DNA of 64,000 bases from Pseudomonadota bacterium (lineage in GTDB: Bacteria; Pseudomonadota; Alphaproteobacteria; Rhodobacterales; Rhodobacteraceae). Position numbers and translations under genes: made by a program. Within the stretch, counting starts at the first letter, position 1. Every line of letters starts with the position of its first letter. The notes below the pieces were generated by a model that did not search any database, was not told where the DNA came from, and worked only from the letters and a program-made list of their open reading frames with translations. Location of the stretch: the NCBI GenBank assembly GCA_021845805.1, contig JAJZVD010000011.1, positions 1-64,000 on the forward strand. Reading direction: 5' to 3'. Of the stretch, positions 22,501 to 47,879 are shown piece after piece.

Positions 22501-23280
22501 GTGTCAATCTACATTTACACATCCGAGGGACTCGCCATCCAAACCGTCACGCTCAGCCTCTTCCGCTTCGCCTCGCTTCCGACGCAGCTCTGGGCTCTGG
22601 CACAGATGGGACTTCTGCGGCCCGCGCTGTCGCGGGTGCCCGGAATCGGCTTCTGGAAGCTCTGCGGCGCAGGCACGGGCGAGGGGTTCACCCCGCTGCC
22701 CGACCGGCGGGTGATGGGCATCCTGGCCACCTGGCCCGACCTGCCCACGGCCGAACGCGCCACGGCCGAGGCCGCGCCGTTCCGGCGGCTGGGGCGGCGG
22801 GCGGCCGAAAGCTGGACCGTTTTCCTGAGCCCCGTGGCCAGCCGCGGGCGCTGGTCGGGAACGGCGCCCTTCCAGCCCGGCGCGCAGGACACCCACGACG
22901 CGCCGCTGGCAGTGCTGACCCGGGCCACGCTACACTGGCGGCACCTGCTGGGTTTCTGGAGCCACGCACCGATGATCAGCCGCGCCATCGGGGCGCATCC
23001 CGATGTCCTGTTCAAGATCGGCATCGGCGAGGTGCCGTGGTTGCAGCAGGTCACCTTCTCGATCTGGCCCGACGCGCCGGGCATGACAGACTTCGCCCGC
23101 GGCGATGGCCCTCACCGCCGCGCCATTGCCGCCGTGCGCGCGGGCGACTGGTTCCGCGAGGAGCTTTACGCCCGCTTCCACGTTCTGGGCACCCGCGGAA
23201 CATGGCCGGGTGCCGGGCGCGTACCGCGCCTCGGCCGCCCGGATTTGCCGCAGCCCACCCCTTCCAAGGACCCCTGCTGA
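22501..23280 (+). CDS. crtA: Spheroidene monooxygenase
   Basis: Up to 259 residues. It adds the keto group at C2 to make spheroidenone under oxic conditions. Family segments: TVTLSLFRFAS at the N terminus, then GIGFWKLCGAGTGEGFTP and ESWTVFLSPVASRG. The start is problematic. GTG 22501 is the only conventional start, but it lies inside the PpsR box and has no ribosome site. From memory, family proteins begin about where codon 13 (ATC at 22537) lies, and GAGGGA stands 6 bases before that ATC. I give the outer boundary; translation may really begin at 22537. The coding frame itself is intact. It is followed with 1-base overlap by bchI. Confidence 0.93.
   Translation: MSIYIYTSEGLAIQTVTLSLFRFASLPTQLWALAQMGLLRPALSRVPGIGFWKLCGAGTGEGFTPLPDRRVMGILATWPDLPTAERATAEAAPFRRLGRRAAESWTVFLSPVASRGRWSGTAPFQPGAQDTHDAPLAVLTRATLHWRHLLGFWSHAPMISRAIGAHPDVLFKIGIGEVPWLQQVTFSIWPDAPGMTDFARGDGPHRRAIAAVRAGDWFREELYARFHVLGTRGTWPGAGRVPRLGRPDLPQPTPSKDPC
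22502..22519 (-). promoter_or_regulatory. PpsR/CrtJ box in the crtI/crtA divergent region
   Basis: TGTCAATCTACATTTACA is a perfect TGT-N12-ACA palindrome, the known recognition pattern of PpsR/CrtJ. Read on the minus strand it ends in TTGACA, a consensus -35 pointing toward crtI. It overlaps the GTG that is the only conventional start available for crtA. Confidence 0.75.
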
Positions 23281-26882: not shown

Positions 26883-27674
26883 ATGGACGACCTGGAATTC
26901 GAATTTCGCAGCGCCCTTTCGGGAAGCTGCGCAAGTTGGCTGCTGGACCGGCTGAGAGCGACGGTCGAGGATGTGGCCGCGGCAGAGGGGACGACCGGGC
27001 GGACCCTGATCGACCATGGTGGCGACATTGCGGTGCTGGAAACCTGCCTGCGGCGCGGCGATGTCGATACCGCCGAACATCTGTGCCGGACGCGCGGGCC
27101 GGACGTGCAGAGCGCGATCCCGGCGTTCGGGCTGATCCTCGAGGTGATCCACCGGATCGAACGCGACTGGCAGGCCGAGCCCGCCCCCGACGGGCCGCTG
27201 ACCTTCGCCTTCTGGAACGTCCAGAACCTGCTGGACCGTCTGCGCCGCCCCGAGGCCCCGGCAGCCGCGGCCCCGCGCGGGACGGTGCTTGTCGCGCTGC
27301 CCGAGGGCGAGGGGCACCAGTTCGGCGCCCGGCTTGTGGCGCAGGAGCTGCGTCGGCAGTCGTGGAACGCCGAGGCGGACCTTACGGCATCGAACGCGGC
27401 GCTGCTGACCCGCGTGGCGCGGGAATGGATCGACGTGGTCGGGCTGTCGGTCGGCCATGACGGCGCATTCGCCGATCTGGCCCATTTCATAACAGATGTT
27501 CGGGAGGCCTCGCTTAACCGCGGGCTTCGTGTCATGATCGGCGGAGCAGCCATCGTTGCAGCACCGCGGGCCTATGCGTTCTTGGGGGCCGATTGTGTGG
27601 CGGGCGAAATTGCGACCGCGGCCGCATATCTTGACAGTGTCCGCCCCGGACGCCGTCTTCAGGATTGGAACTGA
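26883..27674 (+). CDS. AerR/PpaA-like protein with B12-binding (or SCHIC-type) domain, second copy
   Basis: 263 residues. The C-terminal half has the cobalamin-binding-fold layout: TVLVALP, then EGHQFGARLVAQELRR with the conserved H145 of the HxxG motif, then VVGLSVG (187-191) and VMIGGAAIV (218-225). Just upstream, DWQAEPAPDGPLTFAFWNVQ aligns with RWLDDTDSFVAVTIGVSRLQ of the canonical PpaA at 45622, so I read this as a diverged paralogue. PpaA/AerR bind cobalamin (or haem in SCHIC domains) and antagonise PpsR/CrtJ. GAGGGA precedes the ATG. It is followed 3 bases later by a PpsR-like gene, repeating the ppaA-ppsR arrangement. A perfect ACAGG-C-CCTGT repeat lies at 26850-26860. No TGT-N12-ACA box was found upstream. 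Confidence 0.8.
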   Translation: MDDLEFEFRSALSGSCASWLLDRLRATVEDVAAAEGTTGRTLIDHGGDIAVLETCLRRGDVDTAEHLCRTRGPDVQSAIPAFGLILEVIHRIERDWQAEPAPDGPLTFAFWNVQNLLDRLRRPEAPAAAAPRGTVLVALPEGEGHQFGARLVAQELRRQSWNAEADLTASNAALLTRVAREWIDVVGLSVGHDGAFADLAHFITDVREASLNRGLRVMIGGAAIVAAPRAYAFLGADCVAGEIATAAAYLDSVRPGRRLQDWN

Positions 27675-27677
27675 GCG

Positions 27678-28376
27678 ATGAAACCGGTCAAAGACCCGCA
27701 TCCGGCCCGTGGCGCGGAAGCCAGGTCTGCCAATTTGGTGCCGACCGAATCGGTGTTCGACATCGTGATCCTGCTGGACGCGGATCTGCGGGTGACGGAG
27801 CTGAGCGCCGCGGTCGCCCCCGGTGCGAACGGGCTGGGGCACTGGATCGGGCGGCCGGTCGCCGACCTTCTGAGCCCCGAATGCGTGCCGAAGCTGCCGC
27901 TGTTGCTGGCGGATGGCGGCCACCCCGAGACCGCACGCTGGCGCCACCTGAACTTCCTGGACGGCGGCGATGTGCTGCCGTTCCTGGCCAAGTATTTCCC
28001 CCCGGCCCAGCCGGAACGGGCCCAGCGTCTCTTGGGCCTGCGCGACCTGCGCTCGATCAGCGAGATGCAGAAAAGCTACCAGTCGTTGCAGACCGAACTG
28101 GAAAGCTGCCGGGCGCGCGCGCGGGATGCCGCCGACGACAGCCGCAGCGTCCTGATCTCGGCCGCCGCGCGCGACGTGGGGCGCAAGAGCCTGTCGCGCA
28201 TTGTCGAGGAAACGGTGCAATCGCTCGAGCGGCGCTGCCTTGCGGATGCGATCGAGATGTCGGCGGGCGACCTTGCCGCTGCCGCCCGGCTTCTGCGGCT
28301 GAGCGAGGCCGCGCTGATCGAGAAGGCGGCCGGGCTGGGGTTGCCGCTTGGGCTGGCGATGTCGCGCCGCCTGTGA
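27678..28376 (+). CDS. Mini-PpsR: PpsR/CrtJ-like protein lacking both central PAS domains
   Basis: 232 residues against about 465 for PpsR. Residues 25-125 match the PpsR N-domain (FDIVILLDADLRVTELSA, LLGLRDLRSISEMQ). Residues 126-158 match its helical Q-linker (SISEMQKSYQSLQTELES against PIAEMQQQMIEAQLALEQ in the canonical protein). Residues 170-222 match the Fis-type helix-turn-helix region (SLSRIVEETVQSLERRC). PAS1 and PAS2 are missing. C187 corresponds to the redox-active cysteine of the PpsR HTH. The recognition helix SRQSLYVKLRKF of PpsR is here SEAALIEKAAGL, having lost its basic residues. I infer a dimerisation or antirepressor role rather than ordinary DNA binding. It is coupled to the AerR-like gene before it. 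Confidence 0.78.
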   Translation: MKPVKDPHPARGAEARSANLVPTESVFDIVILLDADLRVTELSAAVAPGANGLGHWIGRPVADLLSPECVPKLPLLLADGGHPETARWRHLNFLDGGDVLPFLAKYFPPAQPERAQRLLGLRDLRSISEMQKSYQSLQTELESCRARARDAADDSRSVLISAAARDVGRKSLSRIVEETVQSLERRCLADAIEMSAGDLAAAARLLRLSEAALIEKAAGLGLPLGLAMSRRL

Positions 28377-28383
28377 CGCGGGC

Positions 28384-29004
28384 CTAGGGCAGCGTCAGGG
28401 CCACCTCGTTGCGGCGGTTCCACGGCAGGGTAAAGGGCGAATCGTAGAAGATGTAGACGGGCGCCCCGACCGTTTTCAGGCCAAGCCGTCCGGCAGCCTG
28501 ACGCAGGGCCTCGACCTGACGTTCCAGCGCCGATGCGGTCGGAAACCCGGAAAACCGCAGCACCGCCATCCGCGCCTTCGGAAGTTCGACGAACCGGATG
28601 TTCGGGTTGTTCGGGCGCGGCAGCGTGGCAAGGCTCCAGCCCGAGGGGATGCCGAAGCGGATGGTCCAGCGGCCCTCGCCCGCGGCGGGGTCGGCGGGCG
28701 CTTCGGTGACGGGGGTTGTCATCGCGATCTTGGCAGACCCGTCGTTGCCGCCGAAGATGTAGCCCGCCAGCACCCTGAACCCGCGCGACGCGGCGGTAGA
28801 GCGGTCGCCATCGACCGTCACTTCGGCCACAAGCTGCGGGGGATAGCTGCGCAGCTCGATGCCGTCGACGCTGCGTTCGACCGTATAGGCGGGCGTTTCG
28901 TATCCCTTGTACTCTGCCACCTGCGCCTCCGCCGCCTGGCCGGAACAGAGGGCCAGCACAACCGCGATGGCCGACCAGAGCCCCCTGTTTCCGGTGATCG
29001 TCAT
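28384..29004 (-). CDS. SOUL/HBP family haem-binding protein, exported
   Basis: 206 residues. An N-terminal signal peptide is visible (SAIAVVLALCSGQAAEA then QVAEYKGYET). The SOUL core follows: YTVERSVDGIELRSYPPQLV, GFRVLAGYIFGGNDGSAKIA, MTTPVTEAP and VLRFSGFPTASALERQVEAL. Family members bind haem or tetrapyrroles. It is the last gene of the leftward bchF-to-cycA superoperon, so a role in periplasmic haem or tetrapyrrole handling for cytochromes is plausible but inferred. ATG 29004 is chosen so that the signal peptide is N-terminal. Confidence 0.82.
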   Translation of the reverse strand: MTITGNRGLWSAIAVVLALCSGQAAEAQVAEYKGYETPAYTVERSVDGIELRSYPPQLVAEVTVDGDRSTAASRGFRVLAGYIFGGNDGSAKIAMTTPVTEAPADPAAGEGRWTIRFGIPSGWSLATLPRPNNPNIRFVELPKARMAVLRFSGFPTASALERQVEALRQAAGRLGLKTVGAPVYIFYDSPFTLPWNRRNEVALTLP

Positions 29005-29032
29005 GATCCGGCCCCAGCCCCCCGCACCCCTG

Positions 29033-29251
29033 CTATTGCGTGAAGGCCCAGAACAGGATGACCGGAATTCCGAAGGCGCAGAGAATGCAGAACAGCTGCG
29101 CCATATGCGCCCAGCGGGCCAGCGGGTCGCGCATCGCGCCATCGGCATAGGCTTCGGTCGCCACCGCGATGGCAAGGCTGGGTGCGCTGCGTTCGATCAT
29201 GATGCGGCGTTCAAGTGCCGCCATCCGTTCGGTCGGGTCAATCTCGGACAT
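29033..29251 (-). CDS. Small membrane protein of the PGC, conserved position downstream of cycA
   Basis: 72 residues. A soluble N-terminal helix (MSEIDPTERMAALERRIMIE) precedes one C-terminal membrane span (AHMAQLFCILCAFGIPVILF). AAGGAA lies upstream of ATG 29251. I do not recognise a named family. It sits between cycA and the SOUL gene on the same strand, suggesting a link to cytochrome or photosynthetic membrane functions, but nothing more can be claimed. Confidence 0.7.
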   Translation of the reverse strand: MSEIDPTERMAALERRIMIERSAPSLAIAVATEAYADGAMRDPLARWAHMAQLFCILCAFGIPVILFWAFTQ

Positions 29252-45621: not shown

Positions 45622-46371
45622 ATGCTGGAAGAACAGTCATCAACTGCCTTGCGCCACGGCGCCGGGTCGGGGTTGCTGGAAGGCATGGTGCAAGGTGTTC
45701 TGCCGGAAGTTGCGCGCCGGGTCGCGCGGCGCAGGATCGCCGCGATTTCCACCGAGCTTGCCGACAGGATCTGCGCCGCAGCACTGGCCGCGGCTCCGCA
45801 GGCGCTGGACGCGATGATCGCCGAACTGGAAGCCTCTGGCATCACGAACGCCGAGATCTGCGACCTTGTGATCCCGACGGTCGCCCGCCGCTTCGGCGAA
45901 CGCTGGCTGGATGACACCGACAGTTTCGTGGCCGTCACCATCGGCGTATCGCGCTTGCAGACCCTGCTGCGCGACCGCGAGGAGATGTTGCGGCAGGCGC
46001 CATCGCCCACCGGACGCCGCGTCCTGGTTCTGGTGCCGCATGGCTGCCAGCACACCCTGGGCGCGCATGCGGTTGCGGGGCAATTGCGCCGCGAAGGGCA
46101 CCGCGTGCGGCTGTCGCTGTGCGAGCCGACGGCCGACCTTGCGCGCAGCCTCGCCGGTTTCAAGGCCGACCTCGTGATGGTTTCAGCCGCCGCGTCCAGC
46201 ATGCTGCCCTGTGCGGCCGAGGCAATCAGCTTTCTGCGCAAAGGCTTGGCAGTGGATGCCCCGATTCTGATCGGCGGCCCGATATTTGCGTCTCATTCGG
46301 ACGTTGCGGAACGTACGGGTGCGGATTTGGCGACCGACAGCATTGCGGAAGCGTTAGCCGTGACTGTATGA
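45622..46371 (+). CDS. ppaA: PpaA/AerR, cobalamin-binding antirepressor of PpsR
   Basis: 249 residues. The C-terminal B12-binding fold is seen in RRVLVLVPHGCQHTLGAHAV (H144 of the HxxG motif), LVMVSAAASSM and ILIGGPIFAS. The segment FGERWLDDTDSFVAVTIGVS upstream matches the helical cap. In Rhodobacter AerR/PpaA modulates PpsR/CrtJ according to cobalamin state and light. Its stop overlaps an ATG in the ppsR frame (46368). Regulated by the box at 45472-45489. Confidence 0.93.
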   Translation: MLEEQSSTALRHGAGSGLLEGMVQGVLPEVARRVARRRIAAISTELADRICAAALAAAPQALDAMIAELEASGITNAEICDLVIPTVARRFGERWLDDTDSFVAVTIGVSRLQTLLRDREEMLRQAPSPTGRRVLVLVPHGCQHTLGAHAVAGQLRREGHRVRLSLCEPTADLARSLAGFKADLVMVSAAASSMLPCAAEAISFLRKGLAVDAPILIGGPIFASHSDVAERTGADLATDSIAEALAVTV

Positions 46372-46448
46372 CACCGCATCAGCCTGTTCTGCGGTCGGTC
46401 ATCCCGGCGCGGATGGGACTGGGTTTGCCACGCGTGGGGGACCAATCG

Positions 46449-47879
46449 GTGACTTCGAAGACCTTCCCCGACGAGCCGATGGCGCTGACGGATGTCATTT
46501 CCTGCGATCTCGCCCGTCTTGCGGTGGTCGAGGCCTATGAAATCGTGACCGTCGTCGACCCTGACGGGACCGTGCGATTCGCCCGGACCCGGATGGATCG
46601 CCCGGATCGCTTGGGCGTCGCCACCTGGGCAGAGCGGAATTTCCGCGCGACCCTGACCGAGGAGAGCGTCGTCAAGTTCGATGCGCAATTGGCCGCGCTT
46701 GCCGCCAACGGAACCACGCCGCGGCCGGTCGAGTTGAACCACCCTGCCGACGAAGGCCCGGACGTGCCGGTCAGCTACCGGTTCCATAGCCTGCCTGACC
46801 GGGCGGGCGTGCTGCTGCTGGGGCGCGATCGCCAGCCGATCGCCGAGATGCAGCAACAGATGATCGAGGCCCAGCTTGCGCTGGAGCAGGATTACGAGGA
46901 ACGCCGCCAGTTCGAGACGCGCTATCGGGTGCTGATGGAAGCCACGCGCGATGCGGTGATGTTCGTCTCGGTGGCGACGGGCAAGATCATCGACGCCAAC
47001 CGCGCCGCAGCGCAGCTTCTGGGCGCAGAGGCGCGCGAATTGTCGGGCGCGGCCTTCGCGCATGAATTCGAGGGGCGCCGCCGCGGCGAGTTCACCGAAA
47101 GCCTGACCAGCACGGCCGTTTCCGCCAGCCTGGTGCCGGTACAGGTGACCGCGCGCCGCTCTCGCCGCCGGATCGTGCTGTTCCCCTCGCTCCTGCGGGC
47201 GGCGGGCGAACGGATGCTGCTGTGCCGCCTGGAGCGATTCGACAAGCCCGAGCCCGCGCCGGATGCCCTGAGCGACCGGTTGGCCGCGCTTTATCATGAC
47301 GGGATCGACGCCATCGCCTTTGTCGACATGTCGGGCACCGTCGAGGCCGCGAATGAGGCTTTCCTGAGCCTCGTCGACAGCCCCCACAGCGGCGCCGTGA
47401 CCGGGCGGCCGATTGCGGATTTCCTGGCGCGGGGCGCGCTTGATGCGCGCGTGCTGCTGGATACCGCGCACCGCACCGGGTTCCTGCGCGCCTATGCCGC
47501 GCGAATCGTCGGGCTGAGCGGGGCGCAGGTGGCGGTCGAGATCTCGGCGACCTACCTCGAGGAAAGCGCCAAGCCGCAGGTCGTGCTGGTGCTGCGCGAT
47601 GCCTCGCGGCTCGAGGCGGTCCGGCGCTCGGGCGTGGCGGTGACCGAAAGCTCTGTGCGCAGCGTGATGGACCTGGTGGGCTCTGCCTCGCTGAAGGACA
47701 TCGTGTCGGAAACCACCGACGTGGTCGAACGGCTGTGCATCGAGACGGCGCTGGAACTGACGCGCAACAACCGCGTCGCCGCGGCCGAGCTGCTGGGGCT
47801 CAGCCGACAGAGCCTCTATGTCAAGCTGCGCAAGTTCGAGATGCTCGACCCCGATGGCATAACCGAAGCCGAGGAGTGA
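46449..47879 (+). CDS. ppsR: PpsR/CrtJ, redox-responsive repressor of photosynthesis genes
   Basis: About 476 residues from GTG 46449, near the 464-469 of Rhodobacter proteins. N-domain, Q-linker (PIAEMQQQMIEAQLALEQ), PAS1 (ETRYRVLMEATRDAVMFVSV), PAS2 (AALYHDGIDAIAFVDMSG) and C-terminal Fis-type HTH (RNNRVAAAELLGLSRQSLYV followed by KLRKF). Both redox cysteines appear conserved: one in RMLLCRLERF, one in VVERLCIETALELT. The start is uncertain: GTG 46449 has GGGGGA upstream; ATG 46479 gives 466 residues; ATG 46368 overlaps the ppaA stop and gives 503. It binds TGT-N12-ACA boxes. Confidence 0.94.
   Translation: MTSKTFPDEPMALTDVISCDLARLAVVEAYEIVTVVDPDGTVRFARTRMDRPDRLGVATWAERNFRATLTEESVVKFDAQLAALAANGTTPRPVELNHPADEGPDVPVSYRFHSLPDRAGVLLLGRDRQPIAEMQQQMIEAQLALEQDYEERRQFETRYRVLMEATRDAVMFVSVATGKIIDANRAAAQLLGAEARELSGAAFAHEFEGRRRGEFTESLTSTAVSASLVPVQVTARRSRRRIVLFPSLLRAAGERMLLCRLERFDKPEPAPDALSDRLAALYHDGIDAIAFVDMSGTVEAANEAFLSLVDSPHSGAVTGRPIADFLARGALDARVLLDTAHRTGFLRAYAARIVGLSGAQVAVEISATYLEESAKPQVVLVLRDASRLEAVRRSGVAVTESSVRSVMDLVGSASLKDIVSETTDVVERLCIETALELTRNNRVAAAELLGLSRQSLYVKLRKFEMLDPDGITEAEE

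Follow-up and report, generated by a model that had tools for sequence, protein, structure and literature searches.

PpsR/CrtJ and AerR/PpaA together form the classical redox, light and B12 switch of purple-bacterial photosynthesis. A stretch of 64,000 nucleotides from a bacterium of the family Rhodobacteraceae (contig JAJZVD010000011.1, positions 1 to 64,000; hereafter the window) encodes two pairs of such proteins, and in one of these pairs the PpsR-type member is shortened. This protein, here called mini-PpsR (27678..28376; 232 amino acids; all features are on the + strand unless stated otherwise), consists of an N-domain, a helix and a Fis-type C terminus and lacks both PAS1 and PAS2. Its gene follows that of an AerR/PpaA-like protein with a cobalamin domain, here called the partner (26883..27674; 263 amino acids). 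The main finding is that, in all of the mini-PpsRs compared, invariant residues of the reading segment are replaced, the redox cysteine is kept and a new motif has become fixed. The interpretation preferred here, held tentatively and at close to an even chance, is that mini-PpsR would modulate full-length PpsR by protein contact, with the partner as its dedicated cobalamin co-regulator. The canonical pair, which serves as the comparison copy, consists of PpaA (45622..46371; 249 amino acids) and full-length PpsR (46368..47879; 503 amino acids, scoring 452 bits against the PpsR-CrtJ profile TIGR02040). Thus, a preliminary description of this DNA was right in stating that two coupled genes after bchO repeat the canonical ppaA-ppsR order, with a shortened ppsR as the downstream gene. 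Its term "miniaturised pair" fits the PpsR-type member (232 versus 503 amino acids) but not the B12 protein (263 amino acids versus 249 for PpaA). The replaced residues, the kept cysteine and the new motif go beyond that description.

The residue changes were read from an alignment of seven mini-PpsRs with 72 of 83 full-length PpsR frames (11 were left out, either truncated at a locus end or redundant with another locus), with positions in the numbering of the window's full-length PpsR. The mini-PpsR of genome G783 was not among the seven, as it had the same score as that of G338, and the start codon of the G785 protein (L132:9166) was chosen by hand. N468, R469, Q481, S482 and Y484, each with a frequency of 1.00 in the 72 full-length PpsRs, are replaced in 7/7 minis, N468 always by D. 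Of the 16 positions in the reading segment (467–488) that are at least 95% conserved, the minis keep 6–8, whereas every one of the 72 full-length proteins keeps at least 14; in the window's mini-PpsR, the altered helix-turn-recognition-helix segment comprises residues 197–218 (28266..28331). The net charge of positions 467–492 is +3.7 (standard deviation 0.5) in full-length PpsRs and between −2 and +2 in the minis. The recognition helix is only 0.10–0.30 identical in five pairs of minis from different lineages (N-domain identity 0.27–0.30), compared with 0.96 on average across 716 pairs of full-length proteins whose N-domain identity is 0.2–0.3. Between the minis of the window and G202, a genome of the same genus, helix A is 0.79 identical and the recognition helix 0.40.

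Other positions have been retained in all seven minis: D58, W87, G89, K103, N124, P134 and R153-D154-L155-R156, together with V437, G438, L442, C457, A461, A472, A473 and L476. C457 is the redox cysteine of the helix-turn-helix (HTH) region, equivalent to Cys420 of CrtJ and to Cys187 of the window's mini-PpsR, and its retention means that a thiol redox input to mini-PpsR is possible. The hydrophobic linker positions 158, 161, 165 and 172 are also retained in 7/7 minis, position L165 being aromatic in each. The residues W120-R121-H122 are new in 7/7, yielding the motif WRH[LV]N[FL] at a site where E122 (0.79) and H125 (0.97) predominate in PpsR; in the window this motif reads WRHLNF (residues 88–93; 27939..27956).

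The relationship of mini-PpsR to PpsR is seen in its sequence and in its predicted fold. Against TIGR02040 it scores 53.8 bits (E 1.7e-14) in two stretches, of which the best spans residues 25–159, a score far short of the equivalog cut-off of 275.4. In BLASTP with the window's own PpsR, the N-domain and Q-linker match with E 1e-5 and the C terminus with E 1e-7. The matches of the two proteins of the pair to profiles and to the window's own PpaA and PpsR show that the resemblance is not due to chance. An AlphaFold2 model built from five sequences (mean predicted local distance difference test score, pLDDT, 75.5) has a PAS fold, one helix of 45 residues and three C-terminal helices. Its top Foldseek matches are the PpsR structures 4l9g, 4hh3 and 4hh2 (E 3.5e-7 to 1.4e-6), and the VIA-align Z scores were 13.6 for 4hh2, 13.6 for 4hh3 and 13.0 for 4l9g, compared with at most 11.9 for other PAS proteins; the superposition on 4hh2 aligned 145 residues (root-mean-square deviation (rmsd) 2.8), and VIA-align barely covered the C terminus. 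A profile of five minis, searched against the PDB, matched the N-domain and Q-linker of R. sphaeroides PpsR (1e-11) and the HTH of NtrC (0.0024). On this basis, Foldseek and VIA-align included, the PpsR N-domain with its PAS fold is placed at residues 25–123 (27750..28046), the long helix at the position of the PpsR Q-linker at residues 125–169 (28050..28184) and the Fis-type C-terminal module at residues 171–219 (28188..28334). What had been said of this protein therefore stands for the N-domain, the helix at the linker site and the Fis-type C terminus, but not for the invariant residues of the reading segment.

The partner matches the B12-binding family PF02310 of Pfam (48.7 bits, cut-off 32.1) and is 30% identical to the window's own PpaA over 145 columns in BLASTP (E 1e-7). 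In a search of the PDB with a profile of five partners, AerR (7te2) ranked first (E 7.2e-18) and AppA next (1.2e-10). The identity of the partner rests on this profile match, as its AlphaFold2 model is weak (mean pLDDT 65.5) and its Foldseek matches, i.e., B12 photoreceptors, AerR 7te2 and the SCHIC domain of AppA, superposed poorly (TM 0.26–0.36 by query, rmsd 8–14.5). The model and the alignment to 7te2 place a predicted four-helix cap at residues 46–121 (27018..27245), in which Trp96, invariant in the five aligned partner rows, corresponds to the cap residue Trp94 of AerR (numbering from PMC9144470). The cap position Phe101 is Asp or Ile in 4/6 partners in an alignment read by eye. The B12-binding Rossmann domain (residues 134–246; 27282..27620) contains the motif H145-Q-F-G148, the codon for the lower-ligand His145 being at 27315–27317. 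HxxG with this histidine occurs in 6/6 partners (as HQFG, HDFG or HTFG), aligned to GEQHTLG of AerR (AerR His145), and the earlier statement that the first protein keeps the B12-fold motifs is thus confirmed. A further B12-domain protein encoded in the window's genome (G000:C74:4336-4821; a frame of 284 amino acids) is related to the partner family.

In R. capsulatus LAerR, cobalamin binding is made light-selective by His10, whereas SAerR, which lacks His10, binds all tested cobalamins in light and in darkness (PMC6199135). None of the six partners has an N-terminal histidine like His10, the first histidine being at residue 45 or later; as a control, 35 of 55 PpaA rows have a histidine in their first 40 residues and 20 have none, in a set where the frames may start too early. 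Since the light-selective His10 is absent, the partner is predicted to bind cobalamin independently of light, like SAerR, and a light-gated partner of the LAerR type is unsupported. Cys16 and Trp19 near the N terminus are invariant among the partners compared, spaced as C-x2-W except in G338, where the spacing is C-x5-W; they are in the region where LAerR has His10 and might be an alternative ligand or a redox site. An AppA-like heme sensor was also considered and rejected: the SCHIC family PF21966 scores only 12.7 bits (cut-off 28.6), and the lower histidine is in the register of AerR, not in that of AppA. Pfam found no BLUF domain in the 263 residues of the partner. BLUF proteins, as short frames of 166–185 amino acids, are present in three of six genomes, elsewhere than the pair, and there was no BLUF match in the genomes G201, G202 or G338; that of the window's genome is a frame of 166 amino acids on another contig (G000:C27:16281-16553, − strand).

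The preliminary description had suggested a second light/oxygen input. A second complete repressor/antirepressor module, working on ordinary PpsR boxes with such an input, would agree with the same gene order, the homologous domains, the place beside bchO and the retained cysteine of the HTH region. With its changed reading segment, however, mini-PpsR is unlikely to be a second repressor that recognises these boxes; in addition, PAS1 and PAS2 are absent from mini-PpsR and a His10-like histidine from 6/6 partners. A module of this kind is therefore regarded as very improbable, and the suggested input, as worded, lacks support.

The pair appears to have a long history of its own. In a PpsR tree of 68 rows (thinned from 79 at 80% identity), the minis form one clade with support 99/98, and in a B12 tree of 85 rows (thinned from 86, with two rows, the window's PpaA and the G338 partner, relabelled by hand) the partners form one clade with support 100/97; the label "other" in the latter includes PpaA rows whose neighbour the distance rule missed. 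The minis are on long branches, which drew a warning of possibly false grouping; the corresponding warning for the B12 tree concerns two other rows, not the partners. Neither protein groups with the canonical copy of the window. On these sequence comparisons, the pair arose long ago as a paralogue of the ppaA/aerR-ppsR operon and has evolved separately, and a recent duplication of the host's own pair is disfavoured by the separate clades, which lie apart from the window's PpaA and PpsR, although the PpsR that the window's mini most resembles by identity is that of its own genome (0.34; median 0.31). In both trees the nearest full-length neighbours are the products of the ppaA-ppsR genes of G015 (L023); the PpaA branch of that genome is very long, so no firm origin was drawn from this.

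Both proteins are under purifying selection: between the window and G201, dN/dS is 0.121 for the partner and 0.126 for mini-PpsR, compared with 0.072 for full-length PpsR. These values bear on the explanation that the pair is a functionless, decaying relic of a duplicated ppaA-ppsR operon. Missing domains, lost recognition residues, rarity (2/394 family genomes among the matches listed) and the lack of the partner gene in G785 could be expected of a relic, but the frames are open in three lineages, the two dN/dS values are low and the mini-specific motif WRH[LV]N[FL] is present in 7/7 minis. Thus, a pseudogene is disfavoured by dN/dS and conservation, and decay has the least to recommend it of all the explanations, being highly improbable.

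Mini-PpsR was found in eight genomes from three lineages of one family: G000 (the window's own genome), G201 and G202; Roseinatronobacter sp. S2 and an S2-like metagenome-assembled genome (L097); and G338, G783 and G785. The B12 partner accompanies it in 7/8, which answers with seven genomes for the pair, and eight for mini-PpsR, the earlier query whether relatives have it. A full-length PpsR frame is also present in 8/8 (477–506 amino acids in G338, G783 and G785). In the window's genus, 3/7 genomes have mini-PpsR and the other four had no match to query P0002 at E ≤ 0.001; in the genus of G338, 3/6 genomes have it. The pair of S2, on plasmid NZ_CP121115.1, was found by a plasmid search with the B12 protein, and comprises a "cobalamin-dependent protein" (282 amino acids) whose gene overlaps by 4 bp that of a "hypothetical protein" (244 amino acids), located where the photosynthesis gene cluster ends, close to hemA, puhE and acsF. 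In BLASTP between the window and S2, the PpsR relatives are 30% identical (E 2e-18) and the B12 proteins 28% (E 6e-22). The plasmid search with query P0002 gave no match, and that with P0005 gave S2 alone.

A scan of a genome collection with WRH[LV]NF[LM][DEV][GE] gave eight stretches and, after confirmation, four loci: contigs of G201 and G202, the S2-like genome L097, and L098, which comes from an uncultured member of the Rhodobacteraceae. The pair in L098 is identical in translation to that of G338. The scan relied on this one motif, which members like G785 would escape. The short architecture is rare. Query P0002 matched in 66 of 198 family genomes, and among the matches listed all frames exceed 400 amino acids except the window's own. 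A profile search, whose first look scored seven candidates per genome, gave PpsR-type matches at E ≤ 1e-8 in 153/394 family genomes, with the short architecture, among the matches listed, in G000 and G338. Of 385 genomes of Alphaproteobacteria, 24 had a match at E ≤ 1e-10, the window's own being the only short one. In G301, a PpsR frame of 240 amino acids near a contig end, with an HTH piece on another contig, is a putative split full-length PpsR.

In the window, 69 bp separate the end of the bchO-type gene (26813), whose product is an alpha/beta hydrolase according to Pfam, from the start of the partner gene, and 3 bp separate the partner gene from the mini-PpsR gene; across loci, the latter spacing is 2–3 bp or the two genes overlap. 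In G202, too, a bchD-bchO run precedes the pair, and bchO and the partner gene are 67 bp apart. A PpsR-type box, TGT-N12-ACA (22502..22519), lies upstream of the gene run crtA-bchI-bchD-bchO-pair, in which the names crtA, bchI and bchD rest on sequence reading and on the gene order of S2. There are eight such sites in the window versus 3.1 expected (eight were reached by 1/100 shuffles), and one of the eight falls within the partner gene (27062–27079). In S2 there is no TGT-N12-ACA site between the neighbouring gene and the pair (L056:11818-12006), and in L098 there is none upstream of the pair; as no box stands just before the pair in S2 and L098, a PpsR-controlled gene run is suggested for the window's lineage alone. 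Between 26700 and 28600, neither a sigma-70-like promoter nor a terminator-like site on the + strand was predicted, which is weak evidence. Downstream, and convergent to the mini-PpsR gene, is a gene for a SOUL heme-binding protein (28384–29055, − strand; PF04832, 146.7 bits), located between mini-PpsR and two frames named by eye as cytochrome c-type and hemA-type. A frame resembling this SOUL gene follows the pair in G201 but not in G202.

In PpsR, DNA binding requires the N-domain, since constructs lacking it fail to bind; this domain also takes part in oligomer formation. PAS2 plays a part in the tetramer, whose formation AppA prevents when it binds to the Q-linker (PMC3949515). PpaA binds PpsR in a B12-dependent manner (PMC10890935). 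As mini-PpsR has kept the N-domain and the linker, has lost PAS2 and the reading residues, and is accompanied by a full-length PpsR, the role of a mixed-oligomer partner or antirepressor fits best. Mini-PpsR would then act via protein contacts, not by reading PpsR boxes, and would pair with full-length PpsR through its N-domain and linker. The resulting mixed oligomers would be short of one PAS2 and one reading head and could therefore repress more weakly, and the dedicated AerR-like partner would tune this effect by means of cobalamin. As the pair ends the crtA-bchIDO run downstream of a PpsR-type box, expression on easing of PpsR repression is proposed for the window's genus, i.e., a feedback. 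Put together, a reader-less repressor that disarms or retunes full-length PpsR by mixed oligomers, with a private cobalamin protein and in a gene run possibly controlled by PpsR, is a possible rather than a probable account. Id proteins, which disarm bHLH factors, offer an analogy for such a reader-less repressor.

Several findings weigh against a protein-contact role for mini-PpsR, and some of them favour the explanation that it is still a DNA-binding regulator with an altered recognition helix and private sites, the partner being its cobalamin co-regulator. Pfam HTH_8 matches 5/5 minis tested at E ≤ 0.05. The G785 mini passes the cut-off for this family (24.3 bits, cut-off 22), and in the minis of G338 and G785 basic residues occur within the reading helix and after it, so that DNA binding of some kind may persist. 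Over the whole segment 467–488, the identity of minis from different lineages (0.36–0.45) is not below that of helix A (0.28–0.41); only the recognition helix is below helix A, clearly in 3/5 pairs and marginally in 2/5. Comparisons within lineages show the C-terminal module to be no less conserved than the remainder of the protein, the last 70 codons versus the others giving 58% and 49% for window–G202, 69% and 54% for G338–G785, 94% and 91% for S2–L097, and 96% in both for window–G201. Set against private sites are the low identity of the recognition helix across the three lineages, the reduced net charge of 467–492 and the difference between helix A and the recognition helix in the window–G202 comparison. 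Private-site binding is judged unlikely, though less so than the other alternatives to the preferred interpretation.

Further points on the same side concern the mixed oligomers and the partner. When the 72 full-length PpsRs are ranked by similarity to a mini, the PpsR of the mini's own genome takes ranks 1, 2, 32, 62, 60 and 44, a scatter that does not generally favour a shared dimer interface. G785 keeps an intact mini-PpsR frame (222 amino acids, L132:8100-9170) without a partner gene: no partner of this clade was found in that genome, where only a remnant like the C-terminal end of the partner was seen upstream by eye, and the partner seems dispensable for the retention of mini-PpsR there. 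In the lineage of G338, no photosynthesis genes adjoin the pair in the stretches read. There, in L091 and L098, the contigs that carry the pair measure about 110 and 129 kb, and nearby frames are by eye transposase-like and integrase-like; these neighbours, away from photosynthesis genes, indicate that the module may be mobile in this lineage.

The linker is the most diverged part of the protein between mini lineages (identity 0.05–0.26, versus 0.47 in full-length pairs of similar N-domain divergence). This bears on the interpretation preferred here. In another explanation, mini-PpsR is a decoy, its linker helix capturing its own partner or the canonical PpaA and limiting the supply to full-length PpsR. 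The long helix is kept at the linker, where AppA- and AerR-type proteins are held to act, and the partner gene is 2–3 bp away or overlapping. The residues of CrtJ that contact AerR, which come from a model and not from a solved complex (PMC9144470), are retained in the minis in part only: Q133 in 5/7, L136 in 0/7 (aromatic in 7/7), Q140 in 3/7, E144 in 5/7, Y147 in 0/7 and R151 in 2/7 (CrtJ numbering). As the linker is strongly diverged and these modelled contacts are partly kept, docking of the AerR type on the mini linker is uncertain. A decoy alone would, moreover, leave the conserved C-terminal module and its cysteine unexplained, and this role is considered improbable.

The partner resembles AerR of R. 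capsulatus and PpaA of C. sphaeroides and D. shibae in its B12 fold, its HxxG histidine, its cap tryptophan and the position of its gene directly upstream of a PpsR-type gene. It differs from them in having its own clade, no His10-like histidine, an invariant N-terminal Cys and Trp, and a shortened PpsR alongside. Mini-PpsR shares with PpsR/CrtJ the PAS fold of the N-domain, the long helix at the linker site, the Fis-type C terminus and the equivalent of Cys420, and is set apart by the missing PAS1 and PAS2, the replacement of N468, R469, Q481, S482 and Y484, the motif WRH[LV]N[FL] and a score below the TIGR02040 cut-off. AppA, the BLUF-SCHIC antirepressor of R. sphaeroides, similarly has a B12-like fold acting at the PpsR Q-linker, but the partner has its lower histidine in the AerR register and no fused BLUF. 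HP1 of Rhodospirillum rubrum, a reduced PpaA/AerR-like protein, is another divergent member of the same circle of antirepressors; in that case the reduction affects the AerR side, with loss of the cobalamin motif (PMC10734443), whereas in the window's pair it affects the PpsR side and the cobalamin histidine is kept.

Two PpsR-type proteins in one cell are not in themselves new. Rhodopseudomonas palustris CGA009 reportedly has, to judge by a title, two full-length PpsRs, PpsR1 and PpsR2, in one genome, both functional repressors; in the window's genome, by contrast, one of the two is a shortened protein accompanied by an AerR-like partner of its own. For D. shibae, a MarR-type hypothetical protein is described after bchO, and ppsR and ppaA are the two regulators named for the Roseobacter clade and Sphingomonadales; the available parts of these papers do not mention a shortened pair (PMC6052148; PMC3176799). 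In agreement with the preliminary description, which knew of no such system, no description of a shortened PpsR with its own AerR was recognised in the literature searched, most subscription papers lying outside it.

The interplay of AerR, oligomer state and redox at PpsR is still under investigation. As a naturally occurring PpsR of N-domain plus linker with a B12-type partner, mini-PpsR is a dissection tool that isolates the part which AppA and AerR are thought to grip. Photosynthesis gene clusters can hold an unannotated regulator, as the mini-PpsR of S2, filed as a hypothetical protein, illustrates. If mini-PpsR acts without reading the PpsR box, it would add a protein-level arm to a well-studied circuit.

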